A stretch of 64,000 nt of DNA from a virus: positions 1 to 64,000 of the IMG/VR virus record IMGVR_UViG_3300020438_004021. One strand, 5' to 3'. The translations under genes were made by a program, and so were the position numbers. Below the pieces are notes generated by a model. That model worked only from the letters and a program-made list of their open reading frames with translations, had not been told where the DNA came from and did no database searches. Below are positions 12,301 through 58,107 of this stretch, piece after piece. Each line of letters starts with the position of its first letter. Position 1 is the stretch's first letter.

Positions 12301-12368
12301 GGTCTCCAATATATTCTCTCTTATACATAATACAGAATCATTATGGTTTTATAATGGAGAGAATCGAA

Positions 12369-12773
12369 ATGGAAGGCAGATTAACAGCTGAAGATTTAGT
12401 AGAGGTCACTCTTGCGAAAGATGAAGACTTCCTAAAGGTAAAAGAGACCCTTACAAGAATTGGTGTGTCCTCTAGAAAAGAGAAGAGGCTATATCAGTCT
12501 TGCCATATTCTACATAAGAGGGGCAAGTACTACATAGTACATTTTAAAGAACTTTTCGGTCTAGATGGTTTACCGAGCAATCTGTCTGAAAATGATTTAG
12601 GAAGAAGGAATGCAGTCATAAGCCTCTTAGAGGAATGGGGTCTTTTGACAATAGTTGAACCCGAAGACTGCGAAGAACCTATGGCATCTATAGGTCAAAT
12701 AAAGATAATATCTCACAAGGAAAAAGGTGATTGGGAACTAGTCCCTAAATACCATATAGGTAGAAAAAGATAA
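12369..12773 (+). CDS. regA: translational repressor RegA
   Basis: RNA-binding repressor of early phage mRNAs including clamp and loader genes. It has the clear T4 RegA pattern: EDFLKVKETLTRIG, YQSCHILHKRGKYYIVHFKE (19 of 20 residues in register with T4 style), and ELVPKYHIG at the end. ATG 12369 is preferred over 12354 because GGAGA lies 8 bases upstream; this gives 134 aa against 122 in T4, with a few extra N-terminal residues. A TATAAT sequence overlaps the upstream ATG, but no -35 box is visible. Confidence 0.93.
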   Translation: MEGRLTAEDLVEVTLAKDEDFLKVKETLTRIGVSSRKEKRLYQSCHILHKRGKYYIVHFKELFGLDGLPSNLSENDLGRRNAVISLLEEWGLLTIVEPEDCEEPMASIGQIKIISHKEKGDWELVPKYHIGRKR

Positions 12774-12791: not shown

Positions 12792-13472
12792 ATGAAAATT
12801 GATTTACGTGATGTGAAGTGCTGTTGGATTAACCTAGATAAAGATGAAGACAATGCTAAGAAGATGGTCGAGCAGTTCGAAGAGATTGGTATTGAAGACC
12901 ACCATAGACTGTCAGCGAGGGTGATTAACCCTCCTGAGGATACACCAAAATCAATCTATCACTATAGAGGCTGTGCACAGTCCCACATAGACATTTTGGA
13001 TAACGAAGAGAATGGCATGCCTCTCCTCATTCTAGAGGATGATGCTATGATTACAGAGGATTTTGACCCTGTAATAGAAGTACCCGACAATACTGATGCT
13101 GTCTACCTAGGTATCTCTCATGGAGATAACAACTATTTTGCAGTGGACGTTGGTGGTGGGTTTGCCAGAATCGGAAAAGTCTTTGCTACCCACGCAATCT
13201 TATACATCACAGATTCTTATAGGAAGGCAATATCAGCAGTTGCAAAAGAATTCGTGTATGAGAGGAATACACCATTTGATTTGGGTTGTGCTCTGCTACA
13301 GACTCAGAATTTTGTTGTCACACCACACAAGCCTTATTTTTATCAGGCTGATGAGAGGGATAGTGCTAATAAATGGGAATATCTAACAAAGACTCCTCTC
13401 AGAATATTTAATGATGGACCTACGGATATGAAGACTGGTGCACCACCTGATCCTCTGGGTGAGTATGCATGA
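12792..13472 (+). CDS. glycosyltransferase family 25-like protein
   Basis: First gene of the sugar island. It has the LPS-type GT25 opening (CCWINLDKDEDNAKKMVEQF, the family's typical I-N-L-D-R-x-x-R opening) and the LILEDDAMI motif near residues 76-84, corresponding to the DxD-like metal or donor site. An HRGCAQSH-like segment (YHYRGCAQSH) near residue 56 is the expected acceptor-side motif. 226 aa. It probably adds a sugar to LPS, capsule or a virion component. Overlaps the next gene by ATGA. Confidence 0.75.
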   Translation: MKIDLRDVKCCWINLDKDEDNAKKMVEQFEEIGIEDHHRLSARVINPPEDTPKSIYHYRGCAQSHIDILDNEENGMPLLILEDDAMITEDFDPVIEVPDNTDAVYLGISHGDNNYFAVDVGGGFARIGKVFATHAILYITDSYRKAISAVAKEFVYERNTPFDLGCALLQTQNFVVTPHKPYFYQADERDSANKWEYLTKTPLRIFNDGPTDMKTGAPPDPLGEYA

Positions 13473-14740
13473 AATCAATAGACCTACTGAGATTCAATAG
13501 ATTCGATGTAGCCGCTAAGCATCTATATCTAAAGAATTTAGATTCTGGATACCAGACTGATTTCGGCAGACACATATATTCAAGTCATATAGGAATCTGG
13601 AACAACTTTAAGGAATATGATAATCCCAATAAGAATAACGAGCAGTCTTTCATCGACTGCTTCGGGGATATCCATGATTCCATAAGCAAGGTTGGTTACA
13701 AAGAAGACCTCCCACCAGTCCCGATAACTGAAGAAGGTTTTCTGCTTAACGGTGCACATAGACTTGCTAGCTGCATAAAAAATGGTTGCGATATTCGAAC
13801 TGAGGTCACAAATGACCCCAAAGCCGGTCAAATCGATTGCACCTCTTATTTTTTCCTACAAAAGGGACTCGATTATAGAGTATGCGATTCAATCGCCATA
13901 GAATATGCTAAGCTGAAAGAAAATACTTTCATAGTCACCGTATTCCCAGTCGCTACCAAGAACGGTAATATGCTTGAAATCAGGGATATTCTGGTAGGGA
14001 ACGGGTGCAAGATAATTCATGAAAAAGGTGTGGTATTGGAAGGTCATGGACCCATAAACCTCATGAGGCAACTATACTCAGGAGAGGCTTGGGGTGGCAA
14101 TATGCAAAATGCTTTCTCCGGTTATTGCTTGAAAGCAAAATATTGTTATGAAGGTTCTTCAGAGAATCCGACATATGCCTTCTTGGTAGAGTGTGAAGAG
14201 GGTGGTCAAGAGCATATGCTCAAAGTGAAAGACAAGATTAGAGAAGTATACAATCTAGGCAAACATTCGGTTCATATAAATGACACCCATGAGGAGACCG
14301 TTAACCTAGCCAGGGTGTTCTTCAACGATAATAGCCTTCATTTTTTGAATAAGGCTAGCATACAACCATTCCAGAAATACGATTATTTATTCACACAATT
14401 GAAAGAGTGGATAAAATCTAATAAATATAACAGTGATGACATATGTATTACTGCTAGTTCAGTGATGTCAGCATATGGTATGAGGGAAGGACAAGATCTG
14501 GATTATCTCTACGGTGGTGAGGTTGAACCTTTGAATGGTCATGGTCTGATTAACGAGCATAACAAAGAAATTGAGAAATATACTGTTGGCAAAGACGAGA
14601 TAATGTATGATGATAGAAATCATTTCTATTTTGACGGGGTGAAGTTTGCCAGCCTTAAGATGATACATGAACTTAAAGAAAAGAGGTCTGAACCCAAAGA
14701 CCTCGCTGATATTGAAATAATGAAAGGTGTTTTAATATGA
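13469..14740 (+). CDS. two-part protein: ParB-like N-terminus, nucleotidyltransferase-like C-terminus
   Basis: A 423 aa protein without a clear family. Near residues 80-100 the segment PITEEGFLLNGAHRLASCI resembles the ParB/sulfiredoxin-type motif (DGxHR). The C-terminal 120 residues (ASSVMSAYGMREGQDLDYLYGG, then YFDGVKFASLKMIHELKEKR and PKDLADIEIM) resemble minimal nucleotidyltransferase-fold proteins. It overlaps neighbours on both sides by 4 bases, so it belongs to the sugar island. Both domain calls are by eye; function unknown. Confidence 0.6.
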   Translation: MKSIDLLRFNRFDVAAKHLYLKNLDSGYQTDFGRHIYSSHIGIWNNFKEYDNPNKNNEQSFIDCFGDIHDSISKVGYKEDLPPVPITEEGFLLNGAHRLASCIKNGCDIRTEVTNDPKAGQIDCTSYFFLQKGLDYRVCDSIAIEYAKLKENTFIVTVFPVATKNGNMLEIRDILVGNGCKIIHEKGVVLEGHGPINLMRQLYSGEAWGGNMQNAFSGYCLKAKYCYEGSSENPTYAFLVECEEGGQEHMLKVKDKIREVYNLGKHSVHINDTHEETVNLARVFFNDNSLHFLNKASIQPFQKYDYLFTQLKEWIKSNKYNSDDICITASSVMSAYGMREGQDLDYLYGGEVEPLNGHGLINEHNKEIEKYTVGKDEIMYDDRNHFYFDGVKFASLKMIHELKEKRSEPKDLADIEIMKGVLI

Positions 14741-15609
14741 AAATAGCATTATGCTTACACGGTTTGGCATCTGGGAAAAATGATAGAGGTGTTCCCGTGT
14801 CGATAGAGAATTCGATGTCCTCCATTAAGGGGAATCTGATGTCGGACTATGATGTTGACGTGTTCTATCACACCTGGTCGAAAGATTCCGAAGAGTATTT
14901 GAACGAGTCTTATTCACCGAAGGGGTATGAAATAGAGGAGCAGATTAATTTTGATCACCCATTTAAACCAGACGGTGAAAAAAGTGCTGATTTCTCCTTT
15001 ACCCCCGAAGTTCAAGTCAAAATGCAGAGCACTTATAGCAGGTGGTATTCTCTGGCAAAAAGCATCAAACTTAAAAAGGACTATGAGAAAGAGAACGACA
15101 TGAAGTATGACTTCGTGTTCTCTACTAGATTTGATATTGCTTTCTATGAGAAATTTATAAACTTCGAGAGTCTAGACCCTAATAACTTCTATGTATCCAA
15201 CTGGTGGCAGAACCGATACAAGTTCGGTTATAATGACCCGTGGTTCTTCTCTGGTTCTGATAATATGGATACAATCGCCGGTCTTTATGGCAAGATGGAT
15301 GAATACCTTTCTTCAGGCAGTGAATACGAAAGATATATGATGTCTCTAAATGAGATTGGTCCCATGGAACCCCCTTCTCATGACAAGAGGCTATCCAACC
15401 ATGGTCTCCTCAGGCATCATGTGAAAAGCAATGGAATTACATCCATGTTCTTGGGATTAGAGTATAACACCTGGTCGCTAGTTAGAAAAATACCATCGGG
15501 CAGAAATAACCCACATTACAAGAATGGGTTCCCCCTGCCACTGAACGAACCGATTGAGGAATCACGTGGAAGTAAGAACTTGACTGGTCCAGTTGGGGCA
15601 GGATGGTGA
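14737..15609 (+). CDS. putative glycosyltransferase-like protein of the sugar island
   Basis: A 290 aa protein starting MKIALCLHGLASGKNDRGV, a style seen in phage and marine bacterial surface-sugar loci. It contains DVDVFYHTWSKDSEEYL and DFVFSTRFDIAFYE (an RxDxxF-type motif resembling the D-x-D site of GT-A enzymes). Enzymatic activity is inferred from context and motif only. The start overlaps the previous stop by 4 bases and the end overlaps the next gene by 7. Confidence 0.55.
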   Translation: MKIALCLHGLASGKNDRGVPVSIENSMSSIKGNLMSDYDVDVFYHTWSKDSEEYLNESYSPKGYEIEEQINFDHPFKPDGEKSADFSFTPEVQVKMQSTYSRWYSLAKSIKLKKDYEKENDMKYDFVFSTRFDIAFYEKFINFESLDPNNFYVSNWWQNRYKFGYNDPWFFSGSDNMDTIAGLYGKMDEYLSSGSEYERYMMSLNEIGPMEPPSHDKRLSNHGLLRHHVKSNGITSMFLGLEYNTWSLVRKIPSGRNNPHYKNGFPLPLNEPIEESRGSKNLTGPVGAGW

Positions 15610-16388
15610 GAATAGTAATACCTACATGTGACCCACACCTATTTGTGCTCAAGGGGTTCTCTTACTTCTTCAACAAATACTGGGGAGACGACTTTAAGGT
15701 AACCATCTTGGGTTTTAGTGAACCAGACTTCGAATTGCCTGAGAATTTCGAATTTGTGTCTATGGCAAAAGAGCAGGTGGGCAAGGCTAAGGGTTGGTCA
15801 AATTACGTTCTAGAGTATATTAACTCGATAGAAGATGAGCACTTCATCTTCGGGATAGATGATTTTTGCCTAGCAAGACCTTTCGATAGAGAACTATTTG
15901 ACATCCTCAAGGGAGAACTGGGTGAAAAAGTGGGGAGGATAGACCTACAACCATCTTTACAATATGCTAGAGACCCCAGAGATGTGACTACTTATAAAGA
16001 ATTTGATGGATTTGAAATGATTGAGTTAGCACAAAGATCCACTCGTGAATTCATATATAGGATAACAGGTCAGTTCTCAATTTGGAATAGGGAATATTTC
16101 CTCAAGAATCTACAACCAGACTGGACCCCTCATGACTGGGAACTAATTGGGGGTAGATTAGCCGAAGGTGACGGTTATAAAATATTGGGTACTAGAGGAA
16201 GACACTGCGTAAAGAAGGTAGAGCTAGTTAGTGAAAAGCAGTACCCCAATAAGATTAACGTCAAAGGTATGAGACAAGAAGATATAGATAAGGTAAAAGA
16301 GATTTACTCAGATAGACCTGAGGAAATAGGGGAATTTAAAGAAGAATGGCCCTTTGATAATTGGATTGATATTGTTTATGGAGATTAA
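15603..16388 (+). CDS. GT-A-like glycosyltransferase candidate
   Basis: A 261 aa protein with an N-terminal nucleotide-sugar-fold-like strand (MVRIVIPTCDPHLFVLKG) and an acidic motif HFIFGIDDFCLARP near residues 82-95 in the position of a DxD motif. The later PDWTPHDWELIGGRLA is typical of related phage glycosyltransferase-like proteins. Acceptor and donor unknown. It overlaps the preceding gene and is followed by a sugar dehydratase/epimerase, so a role in building a glycan is likely. Confidence 0.55.
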   Translation: MVRIVIPTCDPHLFVLKGFSYFFNKYWGDDFKVTILGFSEPDFELPENFEFVSMAKEQVGKAKGWSNYVLEYINSIEDEHFIFGIDDFCLARPFDRELFDILKGELGEKVGRIDLQPSLQYARDPRDVTTYKEFDGFEMIELAQRSTREFIYRITGQFSIWNREYFLKNLQPDWTPHDWELIGGRLAEGDGYKILGTRGRHCVKKVELVSEKQYPNKINVKGMRQEDIDKVKEIYSDRPEEIGEFKEEWPFDNWIDIVYGD

Positions 16389-16389
16389 T

Positions 16390-17253
16390 ATGAACGTTTT
16401 GAACCCTGACAGAAGATATTTAATAACTGGGGCTGCTGGTTTCCTTGGGGAGGCACTGCTGGACAGACTAGAAAGTCTAGGTTGTACCAATGTAGTGACC
16501 GTCTCTAGAAACGAAGGCAATCTAATTAAAATGAAGCAGAAGTATCCTTGGTTAGAGATTATACCAGGTGATATTTCGAATATACATTGCCTACACAAGG
16601 GGATGAAAGGTGTTGACGGTGTATTTCATCTAGCAGCATTTAAGCATGTGGGTATGGCAGAAACGCATTGTAGAGAATGTATTGCTAGCAACACGATTGG
16701 TTCGATGAATCTTCTAGACGAGACACTTGACTACGACTTAGACTTCGTTGTCGGTATTAGCACAGACAAGGCTGCTCAGGTAGTGGGAATTTATGGTGCT
16801 TCTAAACTCCTCATGGAAGGACTCTTTGACGAGTACAATAGAATCAAACCAGAGAACAACTATCGCATAGTCAGATACGGGAATGTGTTGTATTCCACGG
16901 GTTCCGTTCTGTGTAAGTGGAAGGAATTGCTGTCTGAGGGTAAAGAGGTAGTAGTAACAGATGCCAATGCTACAAGGTTCTTCTGGACCAGGGAGCAGGC
17001 AATAGACCTTATATTTTCTTGCCTTGAGAATGCTACCGACACTTCACCCTACTGTCCAGACATGAAATCAATGAAGATATCAGACCTACTAGAGGCGATG
17101 TCTAATAAGTACCTACCAGAAGGTGGTGAGCTTAAGGTCAAGACTATTGGTCTGCAAAAGGGAGAGAATCTCCATGAGAAGATTCTTGAAGAAGGACCAT
17201 ATTCAAATGAGGTAGAGCTTTACTCTGTATCCGAAATTGAAGAAATGGTTTGA
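16390..17253 (+). CDS. NAD-dependent sugar-nucleotide dehydratase/epimerase (FlaA1/CapD-like)
   Basis: Extended short-chain dehydrogenase. It has the Rossmann motif TGAAGFLG near residues 12-19, a DISN segment, FHLAAFKHVGMAE (the AAxKHV pattern is typical of UDP-GlcNAc 4,6-dehydratases of the FlaA1/PseB/CapD group) and catalytic YGASK near 134-138. It is followed by VRYGNVLYSTGSV, also typical of that group. 287 aa. ATG 16390 is chosen because GGAG lies 6 bases upstream; ATG 16378 is possible. It probably makes a 6-deoxy-hexose intermediate for a surface glycan. Confidence 0.82.
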   Translation: MNVLNPDRRYLITGAAGFLGEALLDRLESLGCTNVVTVSRNEGNLIKMKQKYPWLEIIPGDISNIHCLHKGMKGVDGVFHLAAFKHVGMAETHCRECIASNTIGSMNLLDETLDYDLDFVVGISTDKAAQVVGIYGASKLLMEGLFDEYNRIKPENNYRIVRYGNVLYSTGSVLCKWKELLSEGKEVVVTDANATRFFWTREQAIDLIFSCLENATDTSPYCPDMKSMKISDLLEAMSNKYLPEGGELKVKTIGLQKGENLHEKILEEGPYSNEVELYSVSEIEEMV

Positions 17254-17879
17254 TGCATAAAAACAAGATTAAAGCGATATTGTATGATTTGGATGGTGTC
17301 TTAATAGACGCCTGCGATTGGCATTATCATTCTTTAAATCGAGCATTAAAAGAAGTGGTGGGGTATGATATCAATAGGGAAGACCATGTGTCTACCTTCA
17401 ATGGTCTACCTACTAACACCAAATTAGATATGCTAGGTGTCATAGGAGAAAATGCTAGAGAGGTATGGAGGAAGAAGCAAGATTACACCATAGACGTAAT
17501 TGAAGAGATGGCGACTCCTATGGAGGAGAAGACAGAACTACACGAAGAGACCAAATCTATGGGGATAAAGTCCTGCTGTGTAACCAATTCAATCAATATG
17601 ACTGCTGAGTTGATGCTTAAGAAGACTGACCAACTGAAGTATATGGACTTTATAATAGCGAACGAGTCTGTTGAGAACAACAAACCACACCCAGATTGCT
17701 ATCTGCTCGCTATGTCTTCCCTACAGCTTAAACCAGAAGAATGTCTAATTGTAGAAGACTCTCCTAAGGGGTTAGAAGCAGCCTATGATACTGGTGCACA
17801 CGTCCTCGAAGTGGAGAATTCTTCAGAAGTCAATAAAGAGAGCATCATCAATGCTTTAATGGGAGTGGCAGTATCATGA
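17253..17879 (+). CDS. HAD-superfamily sugar phosphatase/phosphomutase-like protein
   Basis: HAD hydrolase of the beta-phosphoglucomutase-like branch: motif I LYDLDGVLIDA near residues 9-19, cap domain helices, motif II VTNS near 109, and motif III/IV KPHPDCYLLAM with IVEDSPKGLEAA near 145-175. It probably acts on a sugar phosphate in the nucleotide-sugar route. The ATG overlaps the preceding stop (TGATG). 208 aa. Confidence 0.82.
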   Translation: MHKNKIKAILYDLDGVLIDACDWHYHSLNRALKEVVGYDINREDHVSTFNGLPTNTKLDMLGVIGENAREVWRKKQDYTIDVIEEMATPMEEKTELHEETKSMGIKSCCVTNSINMTAELMLKKTDQLKYMDFIIANESVENNKPHPDCYLLAMSSLQLKPEECLIVEDSPKGLEAAYDTGAHVLEVENSSEVNKESIINALMGVAVS

Positions 17880-18589
17880 ATATATTAATTCCAATGGCAG
17901 GTGAAGGTAGTAGATTCGCTAAAGAAGGATATACCTTCCCCAAGCCTCTAATCGATGTCAACGGGAAACCGATGATTCAAGCAGTCGTGGAAAATCTTGA
18001 CTTTAATGCGAACTATATCTTTTTGGTGAGAAAAGAGCATTTAAAGAAGTACGAAGGTCTGGAAGACACTCTATATAGAATCACCAATGGGAAATGTACC
18101 ATTGTAGAAGTAGATGGTCTTACTGAGGGGGCTGCATGCACGGCACTTCTTGCCAAGGATTACATTGATAATGATGATGACCTCCTGATTGCCAACTCAG
18201 ACCAAATCATCGAATACTCACCTGAGAATTTTAATCTAATGAGGGAGTTAATGCCCAATATAGATGCGATGGTTTATGCCTTTGAGGCAGTGCACCCGAA
18301 ATGGTCATTCGTAAAGACTAATTCAAGAGGCATCATTACCGAAGTGGCAGAGAAGAAACCAATATCAAACATCGCTACGTGCGGGATATATTGGTACAGA
18401 AAAGGTTCTGATTTTGTCAAGTGTGCCGAGGAGATGATAAACAAGAACGTGAGGGTGAATAACGAATTTTACATTGCTCCAGTCTACAATGAACTCATCG
18501 GTGACGGTGGAACATTGGTCCCCTTTTATGTCCACGAGATGTGGGGAATCGGAACACCAGAAGACTTAAGGTCTTATCTGGAGAGATAG
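17876..18589 (+). CDS. sugar-1-phosphate nucleotidyltransferase
   Basis: Activates a sugar-1-phosphate to an NDP-sugar. It has the N-terminal signature IPMAGEGSRFAKEGYTFPKPL (GxGxRF...PKPL) at residues 5-25, VNGKPMIQ after it, and LLIANSDQIIE near 103 for the metal-binding Asp. 237 aa, the compact single-domain type. It overlaps the HAD gene by ATGA, consistent with consecutive steps (phosphomutase or phosphatase, then nucleotidyl transfer). Confidence 0.85.
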   Translation: MNILIPMAGEGSRFAKEGYTFPKPLIDVNGKPMIQAVVENLDFNANYIFLVRKEHLKKYEGLEDTLYRITNGKCTIVEVDGLTEGAACTALLAKDYIDNDDDLLIANSDQIIEYSPENFNLMRELMPNIDAMVYAFEAVHPKWSFVKTNSRGIITEVAEKKPISNIATCGIYWYRKGSDFVKCAEEMINKNVRVNNEFYIAPVYNELIGDGGTLVPFYVHEMWGIGTPEDLRSYLER

Positions 18590-18590
18590 A

Positions 18591-19037
18591 ATGATTAAAA
18601 TAGCACACAGGGGAAATCTTTATGGCAAAAATCCATCCAGAGAAAATGACCCCATCTATATCATGGATGCCGTGGATATGGGATACCATGTAGAGGTAGA
18701 CATTAGGTCCTATAGGGGTAACTTGTACTTCGGGCATGATGAACCTACATATAGGGTGAGTTGGGAGATATTGACTCTTCCTGAGATAATCTGCCATGCC
18801 AAAGACTATGAAGCACTTCAAATGCTGAGGGCGGACCCAAGAATACATTGCTTTTGGCATCAGGACGATGACTACACAATCACCTCAGAAGGGTGGTTAT
18901 GGGTCTACCCGAAGAAGGACTTAATTCAAGACTCTGTTTGCGTCTTGCCTGAATTGGGTTTCTCTGGAGACATTTTAGACTGCAAGGCTGTTTGCAGTGA
19001 CCATGCTGGTGAATTATACAAATACTTACATGATTGA
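18591..19037 (+). CDS. glycerophosphodiester phosphodiesterase-like protein
   Basis: A 148 aa protein with a GDPD-like fold pattern: AHRG near residues 5-8, HVEVDIRSY near 33 (E-x-D metal ligands) and LYFGHDEPTY near 46 (catalytic HD). It is shorter than full GDPD enzymes (about 240), so it may be a minimal or specialised phosphodiesterase. The context between a nucleotidyltransferase and a fucosyltransferase-like gene suggests a role in glycan phosphate chemistry. Substrate unknown. Confidence 0.65.
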   Translation: MIKIAHRGNLYGKNPSRENDPIYIMDAVDMGYHVEVDIRSYRGNLYFGHDEPTYRVSWEILTLPEIICHAKDYEALQMLRADPRIHCFWHQDDDYTITSEGWLWVYPKKDLIQDSVCVLPELGFSGDILDCKAVCSDHAGELYKYLHD

Positions 19038-19045
19038 GGTAGATA

Positions 19046-19930
19046 ATGACTAATAAGATATACTTCGCACCCAACTGGGGACTCTCTTCAGAGCAGATGC
19101 TTGACGATTATAGACACCAGACACCAGGTTGCTCCGGAATTTGGGAGGACGTGGAGGCAGTCACAGATGCTAATGAAGCAGATTATCTAATAATACAGGA
19201 CGAGTGCAACAAGGACTTATGGAGTAAGTTCGAACCGGAGAATAGGTTATACTTCTCTAGGGAAGCATTAACACCGGATTCAATCTACAAGTATCCTGAA
19301 GAAGAATGTGAGCATTTTTCATTTTGGGATGAGACAGGTATGCTTTGGACCAAATGGTGGTATCCAAATAAATTCAGCGGTGGCATCAATATGACCTATG
19401 ACGAGTTGGTAGCATTGGAACCGATTGGTGGTTCTAAGAAAATCAGCTGCATACTGTCAAATAAAGAAATGTGTACCGGTCATATCTGGAGAAAAAGATT
19501 TGTGTTTGATATAATGAGCAAGAAGAAGAACTTCATGGACCTATACGGTAGCACTATAGCTGCTAATTGTAATTTGGTGGAAGACGACAAAAGAAGTGGT
19601 CTATTCAACTACATGTACCATTTGGCATTCGACAACCAGAACACGATAAGAGATTTTTTCGGGACACAGTTCACGGATGCGATTCTGACTTGGACAGTAC
19701 CTATCTTTTGGGGGGGAGCACAATTAGATAAATACTTCCCAGAAGGGTCATATGAAACTGTAGATATAGAAGACCCCAAAGAAATCGACAGGATTATAGA
19801 AATAGTTGAGAGTGAAGACTATGAAAGTAGAGTACCAGCACTTAAAGAAGCGAGAGAATTGATATTAAATGAATATAACATGTGGCCCGTTATTAAAGAT
19901 GCTATTGATACTGTAAACGATGAGGAGTGA
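19046..19930 (+). CDS. family 10-type (fucosyltransferase-like) glycosyltransferase
   Basis: The C-terminal half matches the GT10 alpha-1,3-fucosyltransferase donor-binding region: RKRFVFDIMSKKKNFMDLYG, YMYHLAFDNQNT, FTDAILTWTVPIFWGG and a PEGSYETVDIEDPKEI segment. GT10 enzymes use GDP-fucose or a similar 6-deoxy sugar, which fits the neighbouring dehydratase, epimerase and nucleotidyltransferase genes. 294 aa. GAGGT ribosome-binding site. Probably modifies a host or virion polysaccharide. Confidence 0.8.
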   Translation: MTNKIYFAPNWGLSSEQMLDDYRHQTPGCSGIWEDVEAVTDANEADYLIIQDECNKDLWSKFEPENRLYFSREALTPDSIYKYPEEECEHFSFWDETGMLWTKWWYPNKFSGGINMTYDELVALEPIGGSKKISCILSNKEMCTGHIWRKRFVFDIMSKKKNFMDLYGSTIAANCNLVEDDKRSGLFNYMYHLAFDNQNTIRDFFGTQFTDAILTWTVPIFWGGAQLDKYFPEGSYETVDIEDPKEIDRIIEIVESEDYESRVPALKEARELILNEYNMWPVIKDAIDTVNDEE

Positions 19931-19933
19931 AAA

Positions 19934-21064
19934 ATGAAAGTCCCCCAATTTATGCCCTATGTCGGCATGGATGACTATGAAGCACTTAAGGAATCCTTCG
20001 AGATTAATTGGATTACTGAAGGTCCAAAGTCCAAAATATTCAACCAAAAAATCTGTGAAAAAATAGGAGTGAAGCATGGGTCTTTCGCACCCAATGGCAC
20101 TCTAGCATTATATCTGGCACTGAGAGCACTTGATATAGGTGAAGGGGATGAGGTAATAGTACCCAACTTCACTTTTATCGCGACTGCTAATGCGGTAGAG
20201 ATGGTGGGTGCTACACCTGTCTTTGCAGACATAGACGAATACCTCCAACTAGATGCAGATGCTTGCGAACCGTTGGTAACCGATAAGACTGCGGCTATAA
20301 TGCCAGCACACTTATATGGTTTCTCATGTAATATGGATAAGATACTAGATTTTGCTGATAGGCATAACTTGCTAGTAATAGAGGATGCTGCTCAGGCATT
20401 GGGTGTGGAGTGGAAAGGTGAAAAATGCGGTTCCATGGGGGACATTTCGTGTTTCTCATTTTTTGCTGACAAAACCATCACCACAGGAGAGGGTGGATTC
20501 GTAGCTACAGACTTCGATAGCCGTCAAGAAAGATTGATGTATCTGAGGAATCAGGGTAGGCTTGATAGAGGGACTTTCATTCATCCTGAGATAGGATATA
20601 ACTTCCGAATGACTGATATCCAGTCGGCATTGGGATTATCCCAACTAGGTAAGTTTGATGAGATAGTGAGCCGTAAGAGAGAAATTCATAAAAGATATGC
20701 AGAAATGTTGCATGGGATAGAAGAAGTTGAGGTGATTAAACCGAGTGATGATGTCACATCATTCATCCCATTTAGGGCGGTTCTAATAACCAAGGAAGAT
20801 ACTTCTGATGCCCTAATGGCCTATATGAAAGAAAATGGTGTAGAACCCAGAACATTCTTCTACCCATTACATAAGCAACCATGTTTCTCTGAATATATCA
20901 AAGATGAAAGATATGCCGACTACTCATTCGAGAAGTCCATTCACGCATATGAACATGGGGTCTGCCTGCCATCCTTCGCTTCTATGGACATGGAGCAGGT
21001 AGAATACGTTTGTAACACTATCAAGAATTATTATGCAAAAAAAGGTGAAACAGTAAATGTCTAA
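19934..21064 (+). CDS. DegT/DnrJ/EryC1 family sugar aminotransferase
   Basis: PLP-dependent aminotransferase acting on keto-sugar nucleotides. It has GDEVIVPNFTFIATANAVEMVGATPVF (split motif near residues 74-100), PAHLYGF near 117, the PLP-phosphate region IEDAAQALG near 146 and the SFFADKTITTGEGG segment near 175 with the expected PLP lysine (K178 region). 376 aa, full length. It could aminate the 4-keto product of the dehydratase at 16390. Confidence 0.9.
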   Translation: MKVPQFMPYVGMDDYEALKESFEINWITEGPKSKIFNQKICEKIGVKHGSFAPNGTLALYLALRALDIGEGDEVIVPNFTFIATANAVEMVGATPVFADIDEYLQLDADACEPLVTDKTAAIMPAHLYGFSCNMDKILDFADRHNLLVIEDAAQALGVEWKGEKCGSMGDISCFSFFADKTITTGEGGFVATDFDSRQERLMYLRNQGRLDRGTFIHPEIGYNFRMTDIQSALGLSQLGKFDEIVSRKREIHKRYAEMLHGIEEVEVIKPSDDVTSFIPFRAVLITKEDTSDALMAYMKENGVEPRTFFYPLHKQPCFSEYIKDERYADYSFEKSIHAYEHGVCLPSFASMDMEQVEYVCNTIKNYYAKKGETVNV

Positions 21065-21563
21065 GTACAAGATACATCCTAACCTACATGAACCAACCAT
21101 GCTTAAGATTCAGTCTATATCAGACGACAGGGGTCTATTGGTCCCTTTCACCGACGATATCGACCATGAATTATTCAGAAGATGCTATATTGTCGAAGAC
21201 TATGGCAGAGGTGTGATTAGAGGCCTTCACTATCATAAGTTGGAGATGAAGATATTCACTATCGTGTCGGGAGCCGCCAAGTTCGTCACCCTAAGGCTGC
21301 CACAGGATGTAGCAGATAGGAACGATGAGCATGAAATTGCAGGTCTCATTAAGAAGGACCCTGATATTGTTAAGACTTTCGTGCTCAGCAATAGGCATCA
21401 TTGCGTATTAGCAATCCCACCCAATTTCGCTAACGGTTGGGTGAGTCTGGAAGACAACACAGTTCTCACATCACTTAGCAATCTTAGATTCGAGGATGCA
21501 ATGAAAGACGATATTAGGATCAATCCTTATCTCGTCAATGAATGGGAAGTAGTGGGTAGATAA
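21057..21563 (+). CDS. cupin-fold sugar epimerase/isomerase (RmlC/WxcM-like)
   Basis: A 168 aa protein of the dTDP-sugar 3,5-epimerase/3,4-isomerase cupin type. It shows IQSISDDRGLLVPF, RRCYIVEDYGRGVIRGLHYHK (GxxRGxHYH), KIFTIVSGAAKFVTLRL and IPPNFANGWVSLEDNTVL. The FANGW and GLHYHK motifs are characteristic. It probably epimerises or isomerises a keto-deoxy sugar in the island. Overlaps the aminotransferase gene by 8 bases. Confidence 0.82.
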   Translation: MSKYKIHPNLHEPTMLKIQSISDDRGLLVPFTDDIDHELFRRCYIVEDYGRGVIRGLHYHKLEMKIFTIVSGAAKFVTLRLPQDVADRNDEHEIAGLIKKDPDIVKTFVLSNRHHCVLAIPPNFANGWVSLEDNTVLTSLSNLRFEDAMKDDIRINPYLVNEWEVVGR

Positions 21564-21770
21564 ATGTTTAAAGAGACCAAGACGAGGAGCGTAACCAAGA
21601 CAGTTCTATGGAGGATGATAGCAATCCTCAACAGTTATCTGATATTGGTGCTCGTGATTTCTGATGAGCCGATATATAATGCTCTCTTAATGAACCTCAC
21701 TGGTTTTATTGTTTATTATTTTTATGAAAGATTCTGGGATAGAATCAAAAAAGGAAGGTATGAAGCATGA
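21564..21770 (+). CDS. small DUF2061-type membrane protein
   Basis: A 68 aa membrane protein with the DUF2061 pattern: KTRSVTKTVLWRMIAILNSYLI (R-S-x-x-K-x-x-x-W-R), two hydrophobic segments (about 18-35 and 39-54), and YYFYERFWDRIKKG at the end (YExxWxRIxWG-like). Found in bacteria and phages, function unknown. It starts at the preceding stop and overlaps the next epimerase gene by ATGA, so it belongs to the same unit. Confidence 0.75.
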   Translation: MFKETKTRSVTKTVLWRMIAILNSYLILVLVISDEPIYNALLMNLTGFIVYYFYERFWDRIKKGRYEA

Positions 21771-22696
21771 AAGTACTAGTTACAGGTGGGGCAGGTTACA
21801 TAGGTAGCACCTTGGTCCCAGAGTTGTTGAAAGAGGGACACGAAGTGTGTGTTTATGATTCCTTGCTTTTTGGAGGAAACAGTATGTTACCTCATTTCAG
21901 AAATCCCAAATTCTCCTTTGTTGAAGGTGATATCAGAGATGTTGGTCTCCTGAGAGAATCCGTCGATGAAGCGGATGTAGTGATTCACCTCGCAGCTATT
22001 GTTGGTTATCCGGCATGTGAGAAGGATCATAATGTCACCAAGGCGGTGAATCTAGACGCTACTAAAGCACTGGTCCAGATGGTAAAAGGTTCAGATAAGG
22101 TCATACTGTTTGGTTCTACTGGCAGTAACTATGGTAGGGTAGACGGTGTTTGTAATGAAGAGACACCCTTAAATCCTCTGAGTCTATACGGCACAACCAA
22201 GACTGAAGCAGAACAATATATGATGGACAACTGCAATGCTGTGGCATACAGATTTGCAACAGCTTTCGGTCTTGCTCCTAGACTTAGACTAGATTTGCTA
22301 GTAAATGATTTCACCAATAAAGCAATCAATGACAAGTATATCGTAGTCTATGAATCTCATTACATGAGAACATTCATTCACGTTCATGACATCGCTAGGT
22401 CTTTCATGTTTGCATTAAACAATCTAGATAAGATGGTGGGTAATGTTTACAATGTGGGAAGTGACAACATGAACTTCAGTAAGAGAGAAGTCTGCGAGAA
22501 GATTAACGAAGTCACACCTTACTTCCTACACTTAGCAGATATTGGTAGCGACGCCGACCAGAGAGACTACGTGGTGTCTTATGATAAAATATCTTCTCTA
22601 GGATTTAGTACCACGATAGGTCTAGGCGAGGGAATCAAAGAACTGTCTGAAGGAATAAGAGTGATTAAAAATGACAGTCCATACAGTAATGTCTGA
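21767..22696 (+). CDS. NAD-dependent sugar epimerase/dehydratase (SDR)
   Basis: Extended SDR with TGGAGYIGSTLVPELL at residues 6-21, VIHLAAIVGYPACE near 73-87, FGSTGSNYGR near 114 and catalytic YGTTKTEAE near 140. 309 aa. The VGYPACE pattern is seen in a branch of surface-polysaccharide SDRs. It differs from the other two SDRs in the island and probably acts at a separate step. Confidence 0.87.
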   Translation: MKVLVTGGAGYIGSTLVPELLKEGHEVCVYDSLLFGGNSMLPHFRNPKFSFVEGDIRDVGLLRESVDEADVVIHLAAIVGYPACEKDHNVTKAVNLDATKALVQMVKGSDKVILFGSTGSNYGRVDGVCNEETPLNPLSLYGTTKTEAEQYMMDNCNAVAYRFATAFGLAPRLRLDLLVNDFTNKAINDKYIVVYESHYMRTFIHVHDIARSFMFALNNLDKMVGNVYNVGSDNMNFSKREVCEKINEVTPYFLHLADIGSDADQRDYVVSYDKISSLGFSTTIGLGEGIKELSEGIRVIKNDSPYSNV

Positions 22697-23450
22697 ATAC
22701 TCAGATAAACAAGCAGAGATATATGACATTGTGCATGGTGGTAAGTCATATCAGTCCGAGGTTGACTATATTATAAACATCGCAGAATCTAATAATGTCA
22801 CAACTAAAAAGGTGCTGGACGTAGGTTGCGGAACCGGAATGCATATGGAGGGTTTCCAATCTAGAGGGTGGGAAACACAAGGTGTTGATATATCAGACAA
22901 TATGCTATCGATTGCTAGGTCTAGATTGGAAGAAGGTACTGTCTTAGAAGAAGACTTAGACAAGATAGAGGACAAATTCGACCTAGCAGTTAGCATGTTC
23001 AATGTGATAAATCACATAGGTGGTAGATATGAGAATCTGGAGGATTTCTTCAGAGGGATATCTAGCAAGATGAATAAAAACGGCATATTGGTATTCGACT
23101 GCTTTAATCATGATGCATTTATAAGAGAGTCTCCTGAAGTCACCACTAAGAAATTAGATAACGGGTTCGAACTTAGGACGATACCGATGGCATCCCCATT
23201 TGATAGCAGGTTAGTGCTCAACTGCACCTATACTAATAATATGGGAGAGGACCACGACTATCAGATAGAACATAAGATATGGCACACCGGTCAGATATTC
23301 GCATCTTTGTTTAAACAGGGATTTGCCTTAGTCGGTCTATATGACCATTTTGAGCAGTATAATCATATTCAAAGTGGAAAATATGAGTCCAAAGATGAAA
23401 CTAAGTACAAAATAGTAGTTGTTGCCAAAAAAGTGAGGAGGCATAGATGA
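22671..23450 (+). CDS. SAM-dependent methyltransferase
   Basis: Class I methyltransferase with motif I VLDVGCGTGMHMEGF near residues 48-62, VDISDNMLSIAR near 74-85 (motif II) and DLAVSMFNVINHI near 104. 259 aa from the ATG at 22671; the ATG at 22689 is an alternative with a shorter overlap with the upstream gene. Likely O- or N-methylation of a sugar given its position between two sugar SDR genes. Confidence 0.82.
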   Translation: MTVHTVMSEYSDKQAEIYDIVHGGKSYQSEVDYIINIAESNNVTTKKVLDVGCGTGMHMEGFQSRGWETQGVDISDNMLSIARSRLEEGTVLEEDLDKIEDKFDLAVSMFNVINHIGGRYENLEDFFRGISSKMNKNGILVFDCFNHDAFIRESPEVTTKKLDNGFELRTIPMASPFDSRLVLNCTYTNNMGEDHDYQIEHKIWHTGQIFASLFKQGFALVGLYDHFEQYNHIQSGKYESKDETKYKIVVVAKKVRRHR

Positions 23451-24340
23451 AGTTCTTAGTTACTGGTGGTGCAGGGTTCATAGGTTCACATCTAGTGGAC
23501 CAATTACTGGCAGAAGGTCATAAAGTCATCTGCGTGGATGATGAATCTGCAGAAAACAACGATAAATTCTGGTGGAACCCTGAGGCAGAAAATGCCAAGT
23601 TCAGTATAAAATGCTATGACTGCCTTAAATACCAGATGAAAGAAGTAGACGTGGTATTTCACATGGCTGCTGAGTCTAGGGTGCAGAACTGCATGAAGAA
23701 TCCTAGAATGGCAGTAGAGACCAATGTATTGGGACTATGCAATGTATTGCAGTCAGCATTAGAATCTAATGTAAAGAGGGTCGTCTATTCTTCTACTTCT
23801 TCTGCCTATGGGATTCAAAACCCCATCCCCAACCGAGAGGATATGACCACAGATTGTATCAACCCATATGCGTCGACCAAGGTGGCAGGAGAGATGTTGT
23901 GTAAGAACTACTCCGATATCTTCGGTATGGAGACCGTAATATTCAGGTACTTCAATGTTTATGGTGACAGGTCTCCCGTAAGGGGTCAATATGCACCTTT
24001 GGTGGGTAGATTTTTAGACCAACACAGCCGAGGAGAATCCTTGACTTTAGTACCCGATGGCACTCAGAGGAGAGATTATGTTCACGTTTCGGACGTGGTT
24101 GAGGCTAATGTGATATCCGCTTTCAAGAAAGATATATGCTCGGGTGAAATATATAATGTGGGTACAGGCAACAACTACTCCGTCAAGGAGATAGCAGACA
24201 TTATTTCTGAAGAGCAAGTATTCATTGAACCTAGGGATGGAGAGGCTAAAGAGACACTAGCGGATTGTTCTAAGATAAAAAATGCCTTCTCTTGGGAACC
24301 CAAGATCGACTTGAAAGAGTGGATAGAACGAAATAAATAA
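23447..24340 (+). CDS. NAD-dependent epimerase (UDP-glucose 4-epimerase-like SDR)
   Basis: Extended SDR with TGGAGFIGSHLVDQLL at residues 6-21, VFHMAAESRVQNC near 68-80, YSSTSSAYG near 112 and catalytic YASTKVAGE near 140. FRYFNVYGDRSPVRGQYAP near 165 is characteristic of UDP-glucose/GlcNAc 4-epimerase-type enzymes. 297 aa, intact. Overlaps the methyltransferase gene by ATGA. Confidence 0.88.
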   Translation: MKFLVTGGAGFIGSHLVDQLLAEGHKVICVDDESAENNDKFWWNPEAENAKFSIKCYDCLKYQMKEVDVVFHMAAESRVQNCMKNPRMAVETNVLGLCNVLQSALESNVKRVVYSSTSSAYGIQNPIPNREDMTTDCINPYASTKVAGEMLCKNYSDIFGMETVIFRYFNVYGDRSPVRGQYAPLVGRFLDQHSRGESLTLVPDGTQRRDYVHVSDVVEANVISAFKKDICSGEIYNVGTGNNYSVKEIADIISEEQVFIEPRDGEAKETLADCSKIKNAFSWEPKIDLKEWIERNK

Positions 24341-24374
24341 TCAGAGTGCTGTGAACCAAAAAGGAACTGATGAT

Positions 24375-25676
24375 ATGCACAAATTAAGTCTATGTATGAT
24401 TGTTAAGAATGAGAACGTACCTCACTTCAAGGAGTGTTTGGAGTCCGTGTCTCCCTATATTGATTATTATGTGATAGCCGACAACGGTTCCACAGATGGC
24501 ACTCAGGAGTTCATCAAAGAATTCTTCGATGCTAAAGGTATCAAGGGAGAAGTGCATAATGTTCCATGGGTCAACTTCGGTCATAATAGAACTGAAGCGA
24601 TTCAGTTCTGCAATGGTAAGTCTGAATACTGTCTGATGATTGATGCGGATGACAGAATCATCGGCGAATTGGACCTAGATATCGACCAAATCATTGAAGA
24701 AGGTTGGGATGGTCATGCTCTAAGAATCCAGAGAGGTGACTTCACTTGGTGGAGAAATCAAATCTTCAAGATGACTTCCAACTGGAGCTATGAGGGTGTA
24801 CTCCACGAGTATGCAGCCTGCAATCGTGAAGCACCAGAAGGACACAAACTCGGAAGAATAACAGGTAAATATCACGTAGATGCTAGAACACTGGGTGCTA
24901 GAAACAAAAACCATGAATCTGGTGAAGGAATCGATGGGATTGAGAAATATTCTAGGGATGCCGATGTTCTGCTAAGTGCTTTGACTAATCCCGAAGACCC
25001 CGCTTATGAACCAGACAACGCAAGATACCAGTTCTATCTGGCACAGTCTTACTTCGATTCTCAGCAATGGCAAAAAGCGGAAGATGCATATGGTGCTAGA
25101 GCATCAATGGGCGGATGGCCCGAAGAGGTATTCTACTCTGTCTTCAGGGTAGCGATATGTAAATTGTTGTTGAATAAACCATGGCCCGAAGCTCAAGACA
25201 CCTTCCTTCAGGCATATAACCTTAAACCAGATAGGGCAGAACCTTTGTATCAACTCGCTAAGATACAAAGGATGAATGGGAACCCCAACTTAGGTTATAT
25301 GTTCGCTAAAATGGCATGCGAGATTCCATATCCGAAGGATGATATTTTATTCATCAGCGACCAGGTATATTCCTGGATGGTTCTGGACGAATTTGCTTCA
25401 ACGGCATATTATGCCGGAGATTACTATAACGGTTATAAGGCTGCTAAGATTCTATGTCAGAAGTTGGATGCGGGTGAGATCCCAGAAGAGCATAGAACTA
25501 GAATATTTGACAACATCTCCTTCTACGAGAATGCAATCAAGGAAGGCGAGAAGAAGAAAGAGGTAAATATGGCAAAACTGGAAGAGGCTGCTAAATCCAA
25601 GAGAGATAAAATGCTTGCTAAGAAGAAGACTCAGCAGAAGAACAAAAAGAGGAAGAAGCAGAAGGCTAGAACCTGA
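24375..25676 (+). CDS. family 2 glycosyltransferase with TPR-like C-terminal region
   Basis: GT2 domain at residues 1-200: LSLCMIVKNENVPHFKECLESV, YVIADNGSTDGT and CLMIDADDRI (DxD-like motif). It is followed by TPR-like helical repeats (AQSYFDSQQWQKAEDAYGARA, EPLYQLAKIQRMNGN) and a lysine-rich tail ending KKRKKQKART. 433 aa. ATG 24375 is preferred over GTG 24351 because AAGGAA lies upstream. Last gene of the sugar island; the following gene has a late promoter. Confidence 0.82.
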   Translation: MHKLSLCMIVKNENVPHFKECLESVSPYIDYYVIADNGSTDGTQEFIKEFFDAKGIKGEVHNVPWVNFGHNRTEAIQFCNGKSEYCLMIDADDRIIGELDLDIDQIIEEGWDGHALRIQRGDFTWWRNQIFKMTSNWSYEGVLHEYAACNREAPEGHKLGRITGKYHVDARTLGARNKNHESGEGIDGIEKYSRDADVLLSALTNPEDPAYEPDNARYQFYLAQSYFDSQQWQKAEDAYGARASMGGWPEEVFYSVFRVAICKLLLNKPWPEAQDTFLQAYNLKPDRAEPLYQLAKIQRMNGNPNLGYMFAKMACEIPYPKDDILFISDQVYSWMVLDEFASTAYYAGDYYNGYKAAKILCQKLDAGEIPEEHRTRIFDNISFYENAIKEGEKKKEVNMAKLEEAAKSKRDKMLAKKKTQQKNKKRKKQKART

Positions 25677-25689: not shown

Positions 25690-25709
25690 AATAAATCAGG
25701 AGATTCACA

Positions 25710-26176
25710 TGGGTCGTGCAGGAAATTATGACATCAAGGCAGAGCAAGGTTCTGACTTCAATCTATACCTAGAGTATCAAGAGAACAACGGTACTGGGAT
25801 AACACTTAACAGTTATACTGCCAGTATGCAGGTCAGAAGGTCTGTGGTAGACACCGATGCCCTTTTATGGGTATCCGGCACTACGGTGGTGGGTACTACC
25901 CATCTTAACAGGGCTGTTACCGGTGGTGGTTCTACTGGGGAGTTCGATCCCACGTTGGCAACCGGTGGGGTATTAGGCACTGGTGGGATTAGACTGGATG
26001 CTACTTCAGCGGGCAAGTCAGGTTCTACAGGTGGAATCTTAATAACCATAGGCACAGACACCATGAAGAACGTCCCAGCTGGTAGGCACTTCTATGATTT
26101 AGAACTGCACAGTGGCAAATCTGCCGAGAAAGTGCTTAAGGGCAGATTCGAGGTAGAGGGTGAGGTAACCAGATGA
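25710..26176 (+). CDS. structural-type (tail or baseplate accessory) protein
   Basis: A 155 aa protein beginning MGRAGNYDIKAEQGSDFNLYLEY and carrying a beta-sandwich style pattern: LNSYTASMQVRRSVVDTDAL, ITIGTDTMKNVPAGRHFYDLEL and LKGRFEVEGEVTR. This EQGSxF...YDLEL...GxFxVxxEVTR arrangement recurs in marine phage virion-type proteins (from memory). It has a late promoter directly upstream. It is annotated as structural by pattern and late expression; the exact role is unknown. Confidence 0.65.
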
Positions 26177-26282: not shown

Positions 26283-26311
26283 TTGACTGTGCTTGGTCTT
26301 TGTGGTATAAT
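26283..26311 (+). promoter_or_regulatory. sigma70-type promoter of the dUTPase gene
   Basis: TTGACT (26283-26288), 17 bp spacer, perfect TATAAT (26306-26311). Expected transcript start is near 26318, giving a 20-base leader with GGAG before the ATG at 26338. Confidence 0.85.
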
Positions 26312-26337
26312 GTGTTTTTAACATGGAGATTTTTGTT

Positions 26338-26916
26338 ATGGATTTACCGACACTTGGATATTACCGGACTCACAGCAATGCGATTCCACCTAAAATGAGT
26401 ACAGCAGGAGCAGCCTGCTATGACCTATCTGCACAACTGGTTGTAGAAGACAAAAACGGTCGTGTCACTGACTACAGAGAAGTCACGATTTTCACACCAG
26501 AAAATGAGACCTATGTAGAGACAGCGACCTGCAAGGTGCACCCAACAGAGAGTGGGCGGTTCACACCTTTCAAGGTCGTAATTCCACCTAGACATAGAGC
26601 GATTATTCCAACTGGAATTATATTCGATATTCCAGATGGTTATTCTGTCAGAATACACCCTAGGTCTGGTCTCTCTATTAAGAAGGGATTCATCGTTGCT
26701 AACTGCGAGGGTGTCATCGACGAAGACTACTTCCACGAGATTAAATCTTTAATGGTCAACACAAGCGATGTCCCAATCATAGTTGAGCATGGAGATAGAA
26801 TCGTTCAGGCAGAGATTGTTAAAACAGTACAGCATTATATCGTAGAGACCCACGTTGAGCCTTGTCAGAAGACAGACAGAGTGGGTGGTCTTGGAAGCAC
26901 GGGAGTTAAGGTATGA
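26338..26916 (+). CDS. dut: dUTPase (deoxyuridine triphosphatase)
   Basis: Trimeric dUTPase family; hydrolyses dUTP to dUMP, feeding ThyX and keeping uracil out of DNA. All five motifs are recognisable: AGAACYDLSA (1), PRSGLSIKKG (2), GVIDEDYFHEI (3), HGDRIVQAEIV (4) and VGGLGSTG (5). The N-terminal half has an insertion between motifs 1 and 2, making 192 aa against about 150 in compact enzymes. ATG 26338 is chosen over 26323 for its GGAG site at 9 bases. Overlaps the next gene by ATGA. Confidence 0.93.
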   Translation: MDLPTLGYYRTHSNAIPPKMSTAGAACYDLSAQLVVEDKNGRVTDYREVTIFTPENETYVETATCKVHPTESGRFTPFKVVIPPRHRAIIPTGIIFDIPDGYSVRIHPRSGLSIKKGFIVANCEGVIDEDYFHEIKSLMVNTSDVPIIVEHGDRIVQAEIVKTVQHYIVETHVEPCQKTDRVGGLGSTGVKV

Positions 26917-43830: not shown

Positions 43831-43904
43831 GCTCCTGTAGCTCAGTTGGATAGAGCAGCGGACTTCTAATCCGCAGGTCACACGTTCGAGTCGTGTCGGG
43901 AGTG
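43831..43904 (+). tRNA. tRNA-Arg (anticodon UCU)
   Basis: Canonical cloverleaf: acceptor GCTCCTG with CGGGAGT (two G-U pairs), D-stem GCTC/GAGC, anticodon stem GCGGA/TCCGC with loop CTTCTAA (anticodon TCT), T-stem ACACG/CGTGT with TTCGAGT loop. It reads AGA, the favoured arginine codon of most phage genes here, which host tRNA pools may supply poorly. CCA is not encoded. Confidence 0.95.
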
Positions 43905-43910
43905 CTTATT

Positions 43911-44891
43911 ATGATGAAAAGACACCAGATTAAAATCGGCAATTCGCTTAGTGTCCTGAAGGAAATGGATGATAAAAGTGTGGACTGTGTTGTAACCTCC
44001 CCACCTTATTGGGGATTGCGTGATTATGGTGGTCAAGAAGAACAACTGGGTGCTGAAGGCACACCGCAAGAATTCGTTGACAATATGGTATCCATCTTTA
44101 GTCAAGTACATAGAGTCCTTAAGGACGAAGGGACTGTCTGGTTGAACCTTGGCGACAGTTATTATAACTACAGACCTGGTGCAGGTCAGACACTAATCAA
44201 GCAGACAATCGCTAACAGCGACCAAGACCTTCCCCAAGAGTGTGCTAGGAGAGGGAACAAGATTAAGGGTCTCAAAGAGAAGAGTCTAGTTGGGATTCCT
44301 TGGAGGGTAGCACTTGCTTTGCAGGAAGATGGATGGATTCTGAGACAGGATATCATCTGGCACAAACCCAATCCGATGCCCGAATCCGTAAAAGACAGAT
44401 GTACCAAGGCACACGAATATATCTTTCTCCTAACCAAGAATAAGAAGTATTACTACGACAATGAAGCAATCCTAGAGCCGATCTCTGAGATATCAATAAA
44501 GAGAGCGGAGTATGGTTGGGATTGCGACAGACCTTCAACCAAGAATGCATCAATGGGAGGCGAGGGTATCCACGTCGAAAAGATGGGGACCAGATTCGTT
44601 AATCCCAAGGGCAAGAACAAACGGTCTGTCTGGACGGTAAACACAGCGAGTTATAAAGATGCTCATTTTGCGGTTTACCCCACCAAACTGATTGAACCTT
44701 GCATCTTAGCAGGATGCCCTGAAGGTGGAACCGTTCTGGACCCATTCTCGGGAAGCGGAACAACGGGTATCGTTGCCCTTAACAACGGACGAAAATACAC
44801 CGGAATCGAGTTGAATCCTGAATACGCAGAACTATCGGAAAAGAGAATAGCAGAAGAATGTCCCAACAACCTAACGGAGCTTATGCAATGA
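43911..44891 (+). CDS. DNA methyltransferase (SPPYW type), second of two in the window
   Basis: DNA amino-methylase with motif IV TSPPYWGLRDYGG near residues 29-41 and motif I FSGSGTTG near 279-286, in the order IV then I (beta class). SPPYW is common in N4-cytosine methylases. ATG 43911 (MMKRHQIKIGN) is used rather than a GTG inside the tRNA at 43893. 326 aa. No partner nuclease is seen. Overlaps the next gene by ATGA. Confidence 0.87.
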   Translation: MMKRHQIKIGNSLSVLKEMDDKSVDCVVTSPPYWGLRDYGGQEEQLGAEGTPQEFVDNMVSIFSQVHRVLKDEGTVWLNLGDSYYNYRPGAGQTLIKQTIANSDQDLPQECARRGNKIKGLKEKSLVGIPWRVALALQEDGWILRQDIIWHKPNPMPESVKDRCTKAHEYIFLLTKNKKYYYDNEAILEPISEISIKRAEYGWDCDRPSTKNASMGGEGIHVEKMGTRFVNPKGKNKRSVWTVNTASYKDAHFAVYPTKLIEPCILAGCPEGGTVLDPFSGSGTTGIVALNNGRKYTGIELNPEYAELSEKRIAEECPNNLTELMQ

Positions 44892-58100: not shown

Positions 58101-58107
58101 GACCTTA

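Follow-up and report, generated by a model that had tools for sequence, protein, structure and literature searches.

Flagellin glycosylation islands combine variable deoxy- and amino-sugar genes with a TPR-type transferase and adjoin the surface protein that receives the glycan. Sugar islands are already known in T4-like marine phages (PMC7029224, PMC9602691), and replacement O-chain islands are already known in SAR11 (PMC11898729). Herein, we describe a sugar island in the virus record IMGVR_UViG_3300020438_004021 (136,240 bases), of which bases 1-64000 are called the window below. The island occupies positions 12792-25676, between regA and the polymerase block. The comparison with related loci indicates that it is very probably one allele of a replacement locus and not a one-off insertion.

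Gene content and layout of the island

The island contains 16 open reading frames (ORFs), s01 to s16, on the + strand in an unbroken series between regA and dut-g131-gp43 (Table 1). A sequence-only reading of the window had reported a sugar island of fourteen coupled genes at this place; its ORFs, coordinates, and strand were confirmed, and the number of genes is corrected to 16. Neighbouring island ORFs overlap by up to 26 nt or are separated by at most 10 nt, and the joint between s16 and the following gene g155 is 32 nt. The first large gap (146 nt) precedes dut and contains a promoter-like site (TTGACT-17-TATAAT, 11/12) that is a consensus match alone. Judged from this sequence arrangement, the island is an apparent single operon, and its genes are apparently co-transcribed.

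The catalytic motifs are intact in the recognized island enzymes, and the 68-aa s12 is the sole hydrophobic protein. The three SDRs (s05, s13, and s15), the HAD hydrolase (s06), the nucleotidyltransferase (s07), the DegT aminotransferase (s10), the RmlC/FdtA-like cupin (s11), and the methyltransferase (s14) named by the sequence-only reading were all verified above the Pfam curated cut-offs. It had also named at least three glycosyltransferases; GT10 (s09) and GT2 (s16) score above the Pfam cut-off, and the GT25-like s01 scores below it. The mini-GDPD (s08), the DUF2061 membrane peptide (s12), and s02, s03, and s04, which have no clear family, were not listed there. Pfam, NCBIfam, and PHROGs agree on the enzyme classes, and the proposed amino- or deoxy-sugar chemistry is right in outline.

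Exchange of cassettes at one junction

The window belongs to a lineage whose gp43 is about 50% identical to that of cyanomyoviruses and 69-73% identical to that of the nearest metagenomic contigs. A cyanobacterial host is not indicated because no psbA match was found in the record. The island was unmatched in a near-identity DNA search of isolates. When 50,697 phage records were searched, g155 had no match and s16 had distant relatives alone, at 35% identity or below; no isolate with the same arrangement was thus found.

Both regA and s16 are present in 29 loci, a set that includes the window and some overlapping records of one contig. The junction between the two genes is filled with 2.9-12.7 kb in 25 of these loci and is near-empty (24-50 bp) in the other 4, three of which have about 50 bp there. 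Only 28/300 pairs of cassettes have at least 30% of their proteins in common (at 40% identity). More distant relatives (e.g. L009-L023) showed neither a cassette nor an s16 match at the site.

In two independent contigs, L034 and L035, the site is occupied by the complete set of 16 genes in unchanged order, with 44-89% amino acid identity and synonymous sites near or at saturation. This indicates that the island ORFs are not chance ORFs and that the cassette is old and maintained; the same saturation made dN/dS impossible for most genes. The backbone of L035 has diverged (dut 59%, gp43 63%), yet its cassette is the same. G001 (= L198/L359/L360) has a right flank much more similar to that of the window (dut 94%, g131 90%, uvsX 90%), with gp43 at 72% and regA at 75-76%, and its cassette is wholly different. 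It encodes a GT25-like protein, a GHMP kinase (best match HddA), an SIS isomerase (best match GmhA), an RfaE-II-like protein, an SDR, a GT10-like protein, GT11, and DegT, and is then followed by s16 and g155. The close backbone with another cassette in G001 and the diverged backbone with the same cassette in L035 indicate, for the one close pair examined, that the cassette and backbone histories are uncoupled.

The flanks are conserved while the gene sets that they enclose are unrelated, and cassette and backbone have separate histories in this pair; both are features of a replacement-type island. The sequence-only reading had called the island inserted. The island is real, and it is better read as an allele, because relatives hold other cassettes or none at the same junction.

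In L068 the regA-s16 junction is empty (24 bp), and glycan genes, including a HAD-nucleotidyltransferase-s08 set, lie upstream of gp45 (L068 1-20705). This arrangement points to a second insertion position.

The fixed ends and the fibre linkage

The fixed neighbours of the exchanged cassettes are regA, often a GT25-like gene, s16, which encodes a GT2 glycosyltransferase with TPR-like repeats (GT2-TPR), g155, and, in over half of the relatives, a collagen-like fibre gene. Ten of the fetched loci, L034 and L035 among them, have a homologue of the GT25-like s01 at most 25 nt from regA. At the right end, g155 follows s16 within 400 nt in 57/75 loci. The gene after g155 has collagen-like GXY repeats in 39 of 71 distinct cases, against a background of 6.6% for all ORFs of the s16 loci. 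The Pfam Collagen family verified this in L243 and L198, and in G001 a beta-helix protein comes next. The linkage of s16, g155, and the fibre also survives in loci without a cassette (L200, L201, L211) and is the most conserved feature of the locus.

The AlphaFold2 (AF2) model of g155 (pLDDT 90) has the phage 80alpha baseplate as its best solved match. Among predicted viral structures, its matches include minor tail proteins and a protein with a BppU N-terminal domain. These matches, all with moderate TM-scores, make g155 a predicted virion protein.

Module A and possible heptose-type chemistry

Module A consists of s05 and s10-s14, with s04 and s09 accompanying it; s05, s10, s11, s13, and s14 are its core in the mechanism proposed below. 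It occurs without module B in G003/L356. PseB is the best NCBIfam model for s05, and both s05 (179.5 vs 407.75 bits) and s10 (258.1 vs 423.5) score below the PseB/PseC equivalog cut-offs. The best PDB matches of s10 are a sugar aminotransferase and perosamine synthase.

The s13 protein is matched to PDB 6vo6 with 302 bits, and the next entry scores 88 bits. We take 6vo6 to be Cj1427 of Campylobacter jejuni. Cj1427 is a GDP-heptose C4-dehydrogenase (PMC10680097). In L240 and L243, the s12-s13 pair adjoins genes similar to RfaE-I and RfaE-II, and this independent context agrees with the heptose reading of s13. Heptose-type genes, for heptose-activating enzymes, are present in sister alleles; all these heptose family matches are best hits below curated cut-offs.

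The island had been called close to a full pathway. That description lacks support: no SIS_2 (GmhA-type) or PfkB sugar-phosphate front end was matched in the record (GHMP kinases were not searched), and the host would therefore have to supply any heptose or sugar phosphate.

Module B and the mini-GDPD

Module B consists of the HAD (s06), the nucleotidyltransferase (s07), and the mini-GDPD (s08), and is found without module A in dozens of loci. In viral loci, the HAD gene lies within 1.5 kb of the nucleotidyltransferase in 78/80 and the mini-GDPD within 4 kb in 69/80. In genome contigs, the nucleotidyltransferase has a HAD gene in 73/80 and a mini-GDPD in 34/80 within these distances; for the Pelagibacterales-titled loci among them, the counts are 16/20 and 15/20. 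The s07 protein falls within a viral-only clade of 37 with a support of 99 (quick tree method); a recent acquisition from a host is therefore not apparent for the phage version. For the BcbE-like nucleotidyltransferase family, a transferase role has been proposed (PMC11641403).

The HR, EN, E-x-D, and HD active-site residues of s08 are invariant or nearly so in 48 homologues, and its profile matches GDPD chains at 4e-6. The predicted fold (148 aa, AF2 pLDDT 97) matches full-size GDPD weakly (best match probability 0.90, TM 0.50, E 0.025), and "mini-GDPD" is therefore a description and not an established membership.

Three observations concern the same genes elsewhere. In Candidatus Pelagibacter ubique HTCC9565 (L125 8351-10717), an RmlC-like gene, a mini-GDPD, and a fused HAD-nucleotidyltransferase lie among ordinary SAR11 genes, and the surroundings look chromosomal. 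Many loci from many bacteria (L149-L194) have two nucleotidyltransferase relatives each, one adjoining or fused with a HAD and the other separate, which suggests an undescribed two-nucleotidyltransferase pathway. The contig NHDW01000006.1 (L115), titled "Methylococcaceae bacterium TMED69", a metagenome-assembled genome (MAG), has a nucleotidyltransferase with 72% identity. It was set aside as a host clue, as its other genes are phage-like by eye; it looks like a phage contig, with phage-like genes around its HAD-nucleotidyltransferase locus, that was binned into a bacterial MAG.

Proposed mechanism and acceptor of the glycan

Gene order, the apparent operon, cassette exchange, two separable modules, and retained motifs are read directly from the DNA. 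In the mechanism that we propose, module A would produce a 4-keto-derived nucleotide sugar, probably of amino- and/or heptose-type, and module B would make and edit a second activated precursor. The transferases s01, s09, and s16, perhaps with s03 and s04, would then build a short glycan from host-supplied sugar phosphates. The most likely acceptor would be the phage's own adhesin complex at g155, on which s16 would act as a protein-facing transferase; the next would be the host O-chain. The adhesin is weighed slightly above the host O-chain because the s16-g155-fibre linkage is conserved and survives without the cassette, and because no flippase (Polysacc_synt, PF01943) or initiating transferase (Bac_transf, PF02397) was matched in the record, which may be incomplete. 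As judged from gene arrangement, the conserved linkage of a BppU-like adaptor with a collagen-like fibre slightly favours virion decoration over host-surface decoration.

The cassette probably lets these phages change a sugar coat involved in host recognition. The whole reading, a replaceable surface-glycan locus of an uncultured T4-like phage lineage with the adhesin as acceptor, is tentative, at somewhat less than an even chance. By analogy, the locus may be the phage equivalent of a flagellin-glycosylation island, in which the GT2-TPR enzyme would glycosylate the BppU-like adaptor and the fibre, and exchangeable cassettes, heptose-type included, would swap the adhesin glycan independently of the remaining genome; this more specific proposal is possible and rather doubtful.

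Several points weigh against the whole reading, the adhesin acceptor included. The published view of related phage islands favours host O-chain modification (PMC7029224), and the module-B trio also occurs in bacterial chromosomes, including those of SAR11, as would suit glycans of the host surface. The window's own record yielded no collagen-like fibre, G003 retains module A and s16 without g155, and the virion role of g155 is a prediction. Several of the family assignments are best hits below curated cut-offs.

Remodelling of the host surface is a possibility of real weight, though we lean against it. The cassette sugars would be placed onto the host O-chain, lipopolysaccharide (LPS), or capsule via host lipid-carrier machinery and would block superinfection or the adsorption of progeny to debris, as in serotype-converting phages, where sugar clusters beside adhesin genes also occur. 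In its GT10, GT25, and SDR/DegT/cupin genes the island is similar to O-chain clusters, SAR11 and other bacterial loci also have module B, heptose-type enzymes suit LPS or capsule chemistry, and pelagimyophage islands are read likewise (PMC7029224). However, with neither flippase nor initiating transferase found and a single small membrane protein in the island, the host machinery must do the rest, and the conserved s16-g155-fibre linkage is not specifically predicted by such a role.

Glycosylation of modified phage bases, as in T4 or RB69, had also been raised by the sequence-only reading. T4-like phages are known to glycosylate DNA, and the locus sits among early replication genes. This role is nonetheless very improbable because no hydroxymethylcytosine synthase was found (no match to PF00303, the dCMP-hydroxymethylase/thymidylate-synthase family, in the record), and the number and variety of transferases, together with cassette exchange beside adhesin-type genes, are ill-suited to one base modification. 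Finally, host genes might have been inserted only transiently, with no function under selection in the phage. This would agree with the differences between neighbouring phages at the site, but it is highly unlikely and largely refuted by the complete cassette conserved in L034 and L035, with 16 genes in order over a large divergence in which replacements are far fewer than synonymous changes, as well as by the viral-only clade of s07 and an island GC content that matches the backbone.

With one junction, fixed end genes, many alleles, and a cassette history separate from that of the backbone, the sugar island becomes a comparable system. Why lytic marine phages carry sugar pathways is testable by comparing alleles on near-identical backbones. 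The mini-GDPD module, which SAR11 also has, and the phage heptose-type dehydrogenase point to little-studied chemistry.

Table 1 Features of the sugar island and its flanks in the window.
Feature	Position	Strand	Evidence
regA translational repressor, left flank	12354..12773	+	PF01818 2.7e-43
s01, GT25-like glycosyltransferase	12792..13472	+	PF01755 0.0015, below cut-off; PHROG 2835 glucosyltransferase 2.9e-8; directly after regA in many relatives
s02, 423 aa	13469..14740	+	no Pfam/PHROG match; conserved in L034, L035, G003
s03, 290 aa, probable transferase (putative role)	14737..15609	+	PHROG 13607 6e-21, function unknown; homologues in many viral glycan loci
s04, 261 aa, travels with module A	15603..16388	+	no Pfam match; 67-88% identity in relatives
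s05, PseB-like nucleoside diphosphate (NDP)-sugar 4,6-dehydratase (SDR), module A	16390..17253	+	PF02719 2.6e-61; TDK and YxxxK motifs
s06, HAD hydrolase, beta-phosphoglucomutase type, module B	17250..17879	+	PF13419 1.3e-31; DxDG motif
s07, nucleotidyltransferase, module B	17876..18589	+	PF00483 3.2e-9; PDB 4evw 2.8e-19; viral-only clade
s08, 148-aa GDPD-like phosphodiesterase (mini-GDPD), module B	18591..19037	+	H-R, E-N, E-D, H residues; GDPD profile; AF2 model
s09, GT10-type (fucosyltransferase family) glycosyltransferase	19046..19930	+	PF00852 6.2e-8, above cut-off
s10, DegT-family sugar aminotransferase, module A	19934..21064	+	PF01041 3.6e-107; pyridoxal phosphate lysine motif FADKTITTGEGG
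s11, RmlC/FdtA-like cupin, module A	21057..21563	+	PF00908 1.3e-8, PF05523 2.5e-6; RGLHYHK motif
s12, 68-aa DUF2061 membrane protein	21564..21770	+	PF09834 just below cut-off; paired with s13 in L240, L243, L272
s13, SDR related to GDP-heptose 4-dehydrogenase Cj1427, module A	21767..22696	+	45% identity to PDB 6vo6
s14, S-adenosylmethionine methyltransferase, module A	22671..23450	+	PF13489 1e-12
s15, GalE-like SDR (NDP-sugar epimerase/dehydratase)	23447..24340	+	PF01370 9.9e-56; phrog_540 4e-92
s16, GT2 glycosyltransferase with TPR-like repeats, conserved right end of cassette site	24351..25676	+	PF00535 9.9e-11, weak TPR matches; ATG start possible at 24375
g155, BppU-N-like Ig-fold adaptor, predicted virion adhesin component	25709..26176	+	AF2 model; phage 80alpha baseplate and BppU-N/minor tail matches
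Promoter-like site before dut	26283..26311	+	consensus match only
dut-like gene, right flank	26323..26916	+	putative dUTPase by sequence inspection; ORF and joint; 94% identical in G001, 59% in L035

Other observations in the window

Seven proteins encoded at 51002-59270 (starts 51002, 51796, 52506, 57594, 58108, 59067, and 59270), one of them of 1224 aa, have a similar N-terminal leader (MKSFKQYIKE, MKTFSQYIS, MKSFEQYIAE, etc.), reminiscent of the leader that targets T4 internal proteins to the capsid. At 43893-46967, the genes for a DNA N6/N4 methyltransferase, IMP dehydrogenase/GMP reductase (420 bits), and adenosine deaminase (295 bits) are adjacent and make up a purine-related set.

Comparison with known systems

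As far as found in the open-access literature, the position of the locus, the fixed-end exchange of cassettes uncoupled from the backbone, the fibre linkage, the mini-GDPD trio, and the phage heptose-type dehydrogenase are provisionally undescribed; no paper on phage TPR-glycosyltransferases or phage heptose genes was found there. The gtrABC serotype-conversion system is not apparent among the island proteins, which have no Pfam match to the GtrA flippase or the GtrB bactoprenyl glucosyltransferase (a genome-wide GtrA search was not made).

The pelagimyophage host recognition cluster (HRC) and the cyanomyovirus hyperplastic regions are likewise variable islands of glycosyltransferase and deoxy-sugar genes in marine T4-like phages, with tail-fibre genes associated (PMC7029224). 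The HRC is part of the structural region, with VrlC and gp14 as its neighbours, whereas the present locus lies between regA and dut/gp43 and ends on the right with the GT2-TPR and BppU-like genes. A possible counterpart of the tail-fibre trait would be the collagen-like gene after g155, present in over half of the relatives and not found in the window's record.

The replacement O-chain clusters of Pelagibacterales (PMC11898729) likewise have fixed flanks around gene sets that differ entirely although they serve one kind of product, and their alleles are mostly old and divergent. Nucleotide-sugar enzymes and glycosyltransferases are common to bacterial O-chain clusters and the island. Unlike the Pelagibacterales clusters, the present locus is phage-borne, no flippase or initiating transferase was found, and the one close pair shows a clear uncoupling of cassette from backbone.

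The cyanophages S-CAM9, S-PRM1, and DSL-LC03 have a HAD and a nucleotidyltransferase with an s08 homologue nearby. Their two proteins are fused and about 40-45% identical to those of the island, and the S-CAM9 locus is near nrdB, not between regA and gp43. The GDP-heptose pathways of the C. jejuni capsule (PMC10680097, PMC7949155) resemble the island in having a relative of s13, the entry taken to be Cj1427, and an epimerase-type cupin. They differ in that the record has no GmhA-type or PfkB heptose-phosphate enzymes and no recognized counterpart of the C. jejuni C4 reductase; for s13, the substrate is a prediction.

The flagellin glycosylation islands are alike by analogy: in both, variable sugar genes and a TPR-type transferase lie beside a target, which in the phage would be g155 and the fibre.

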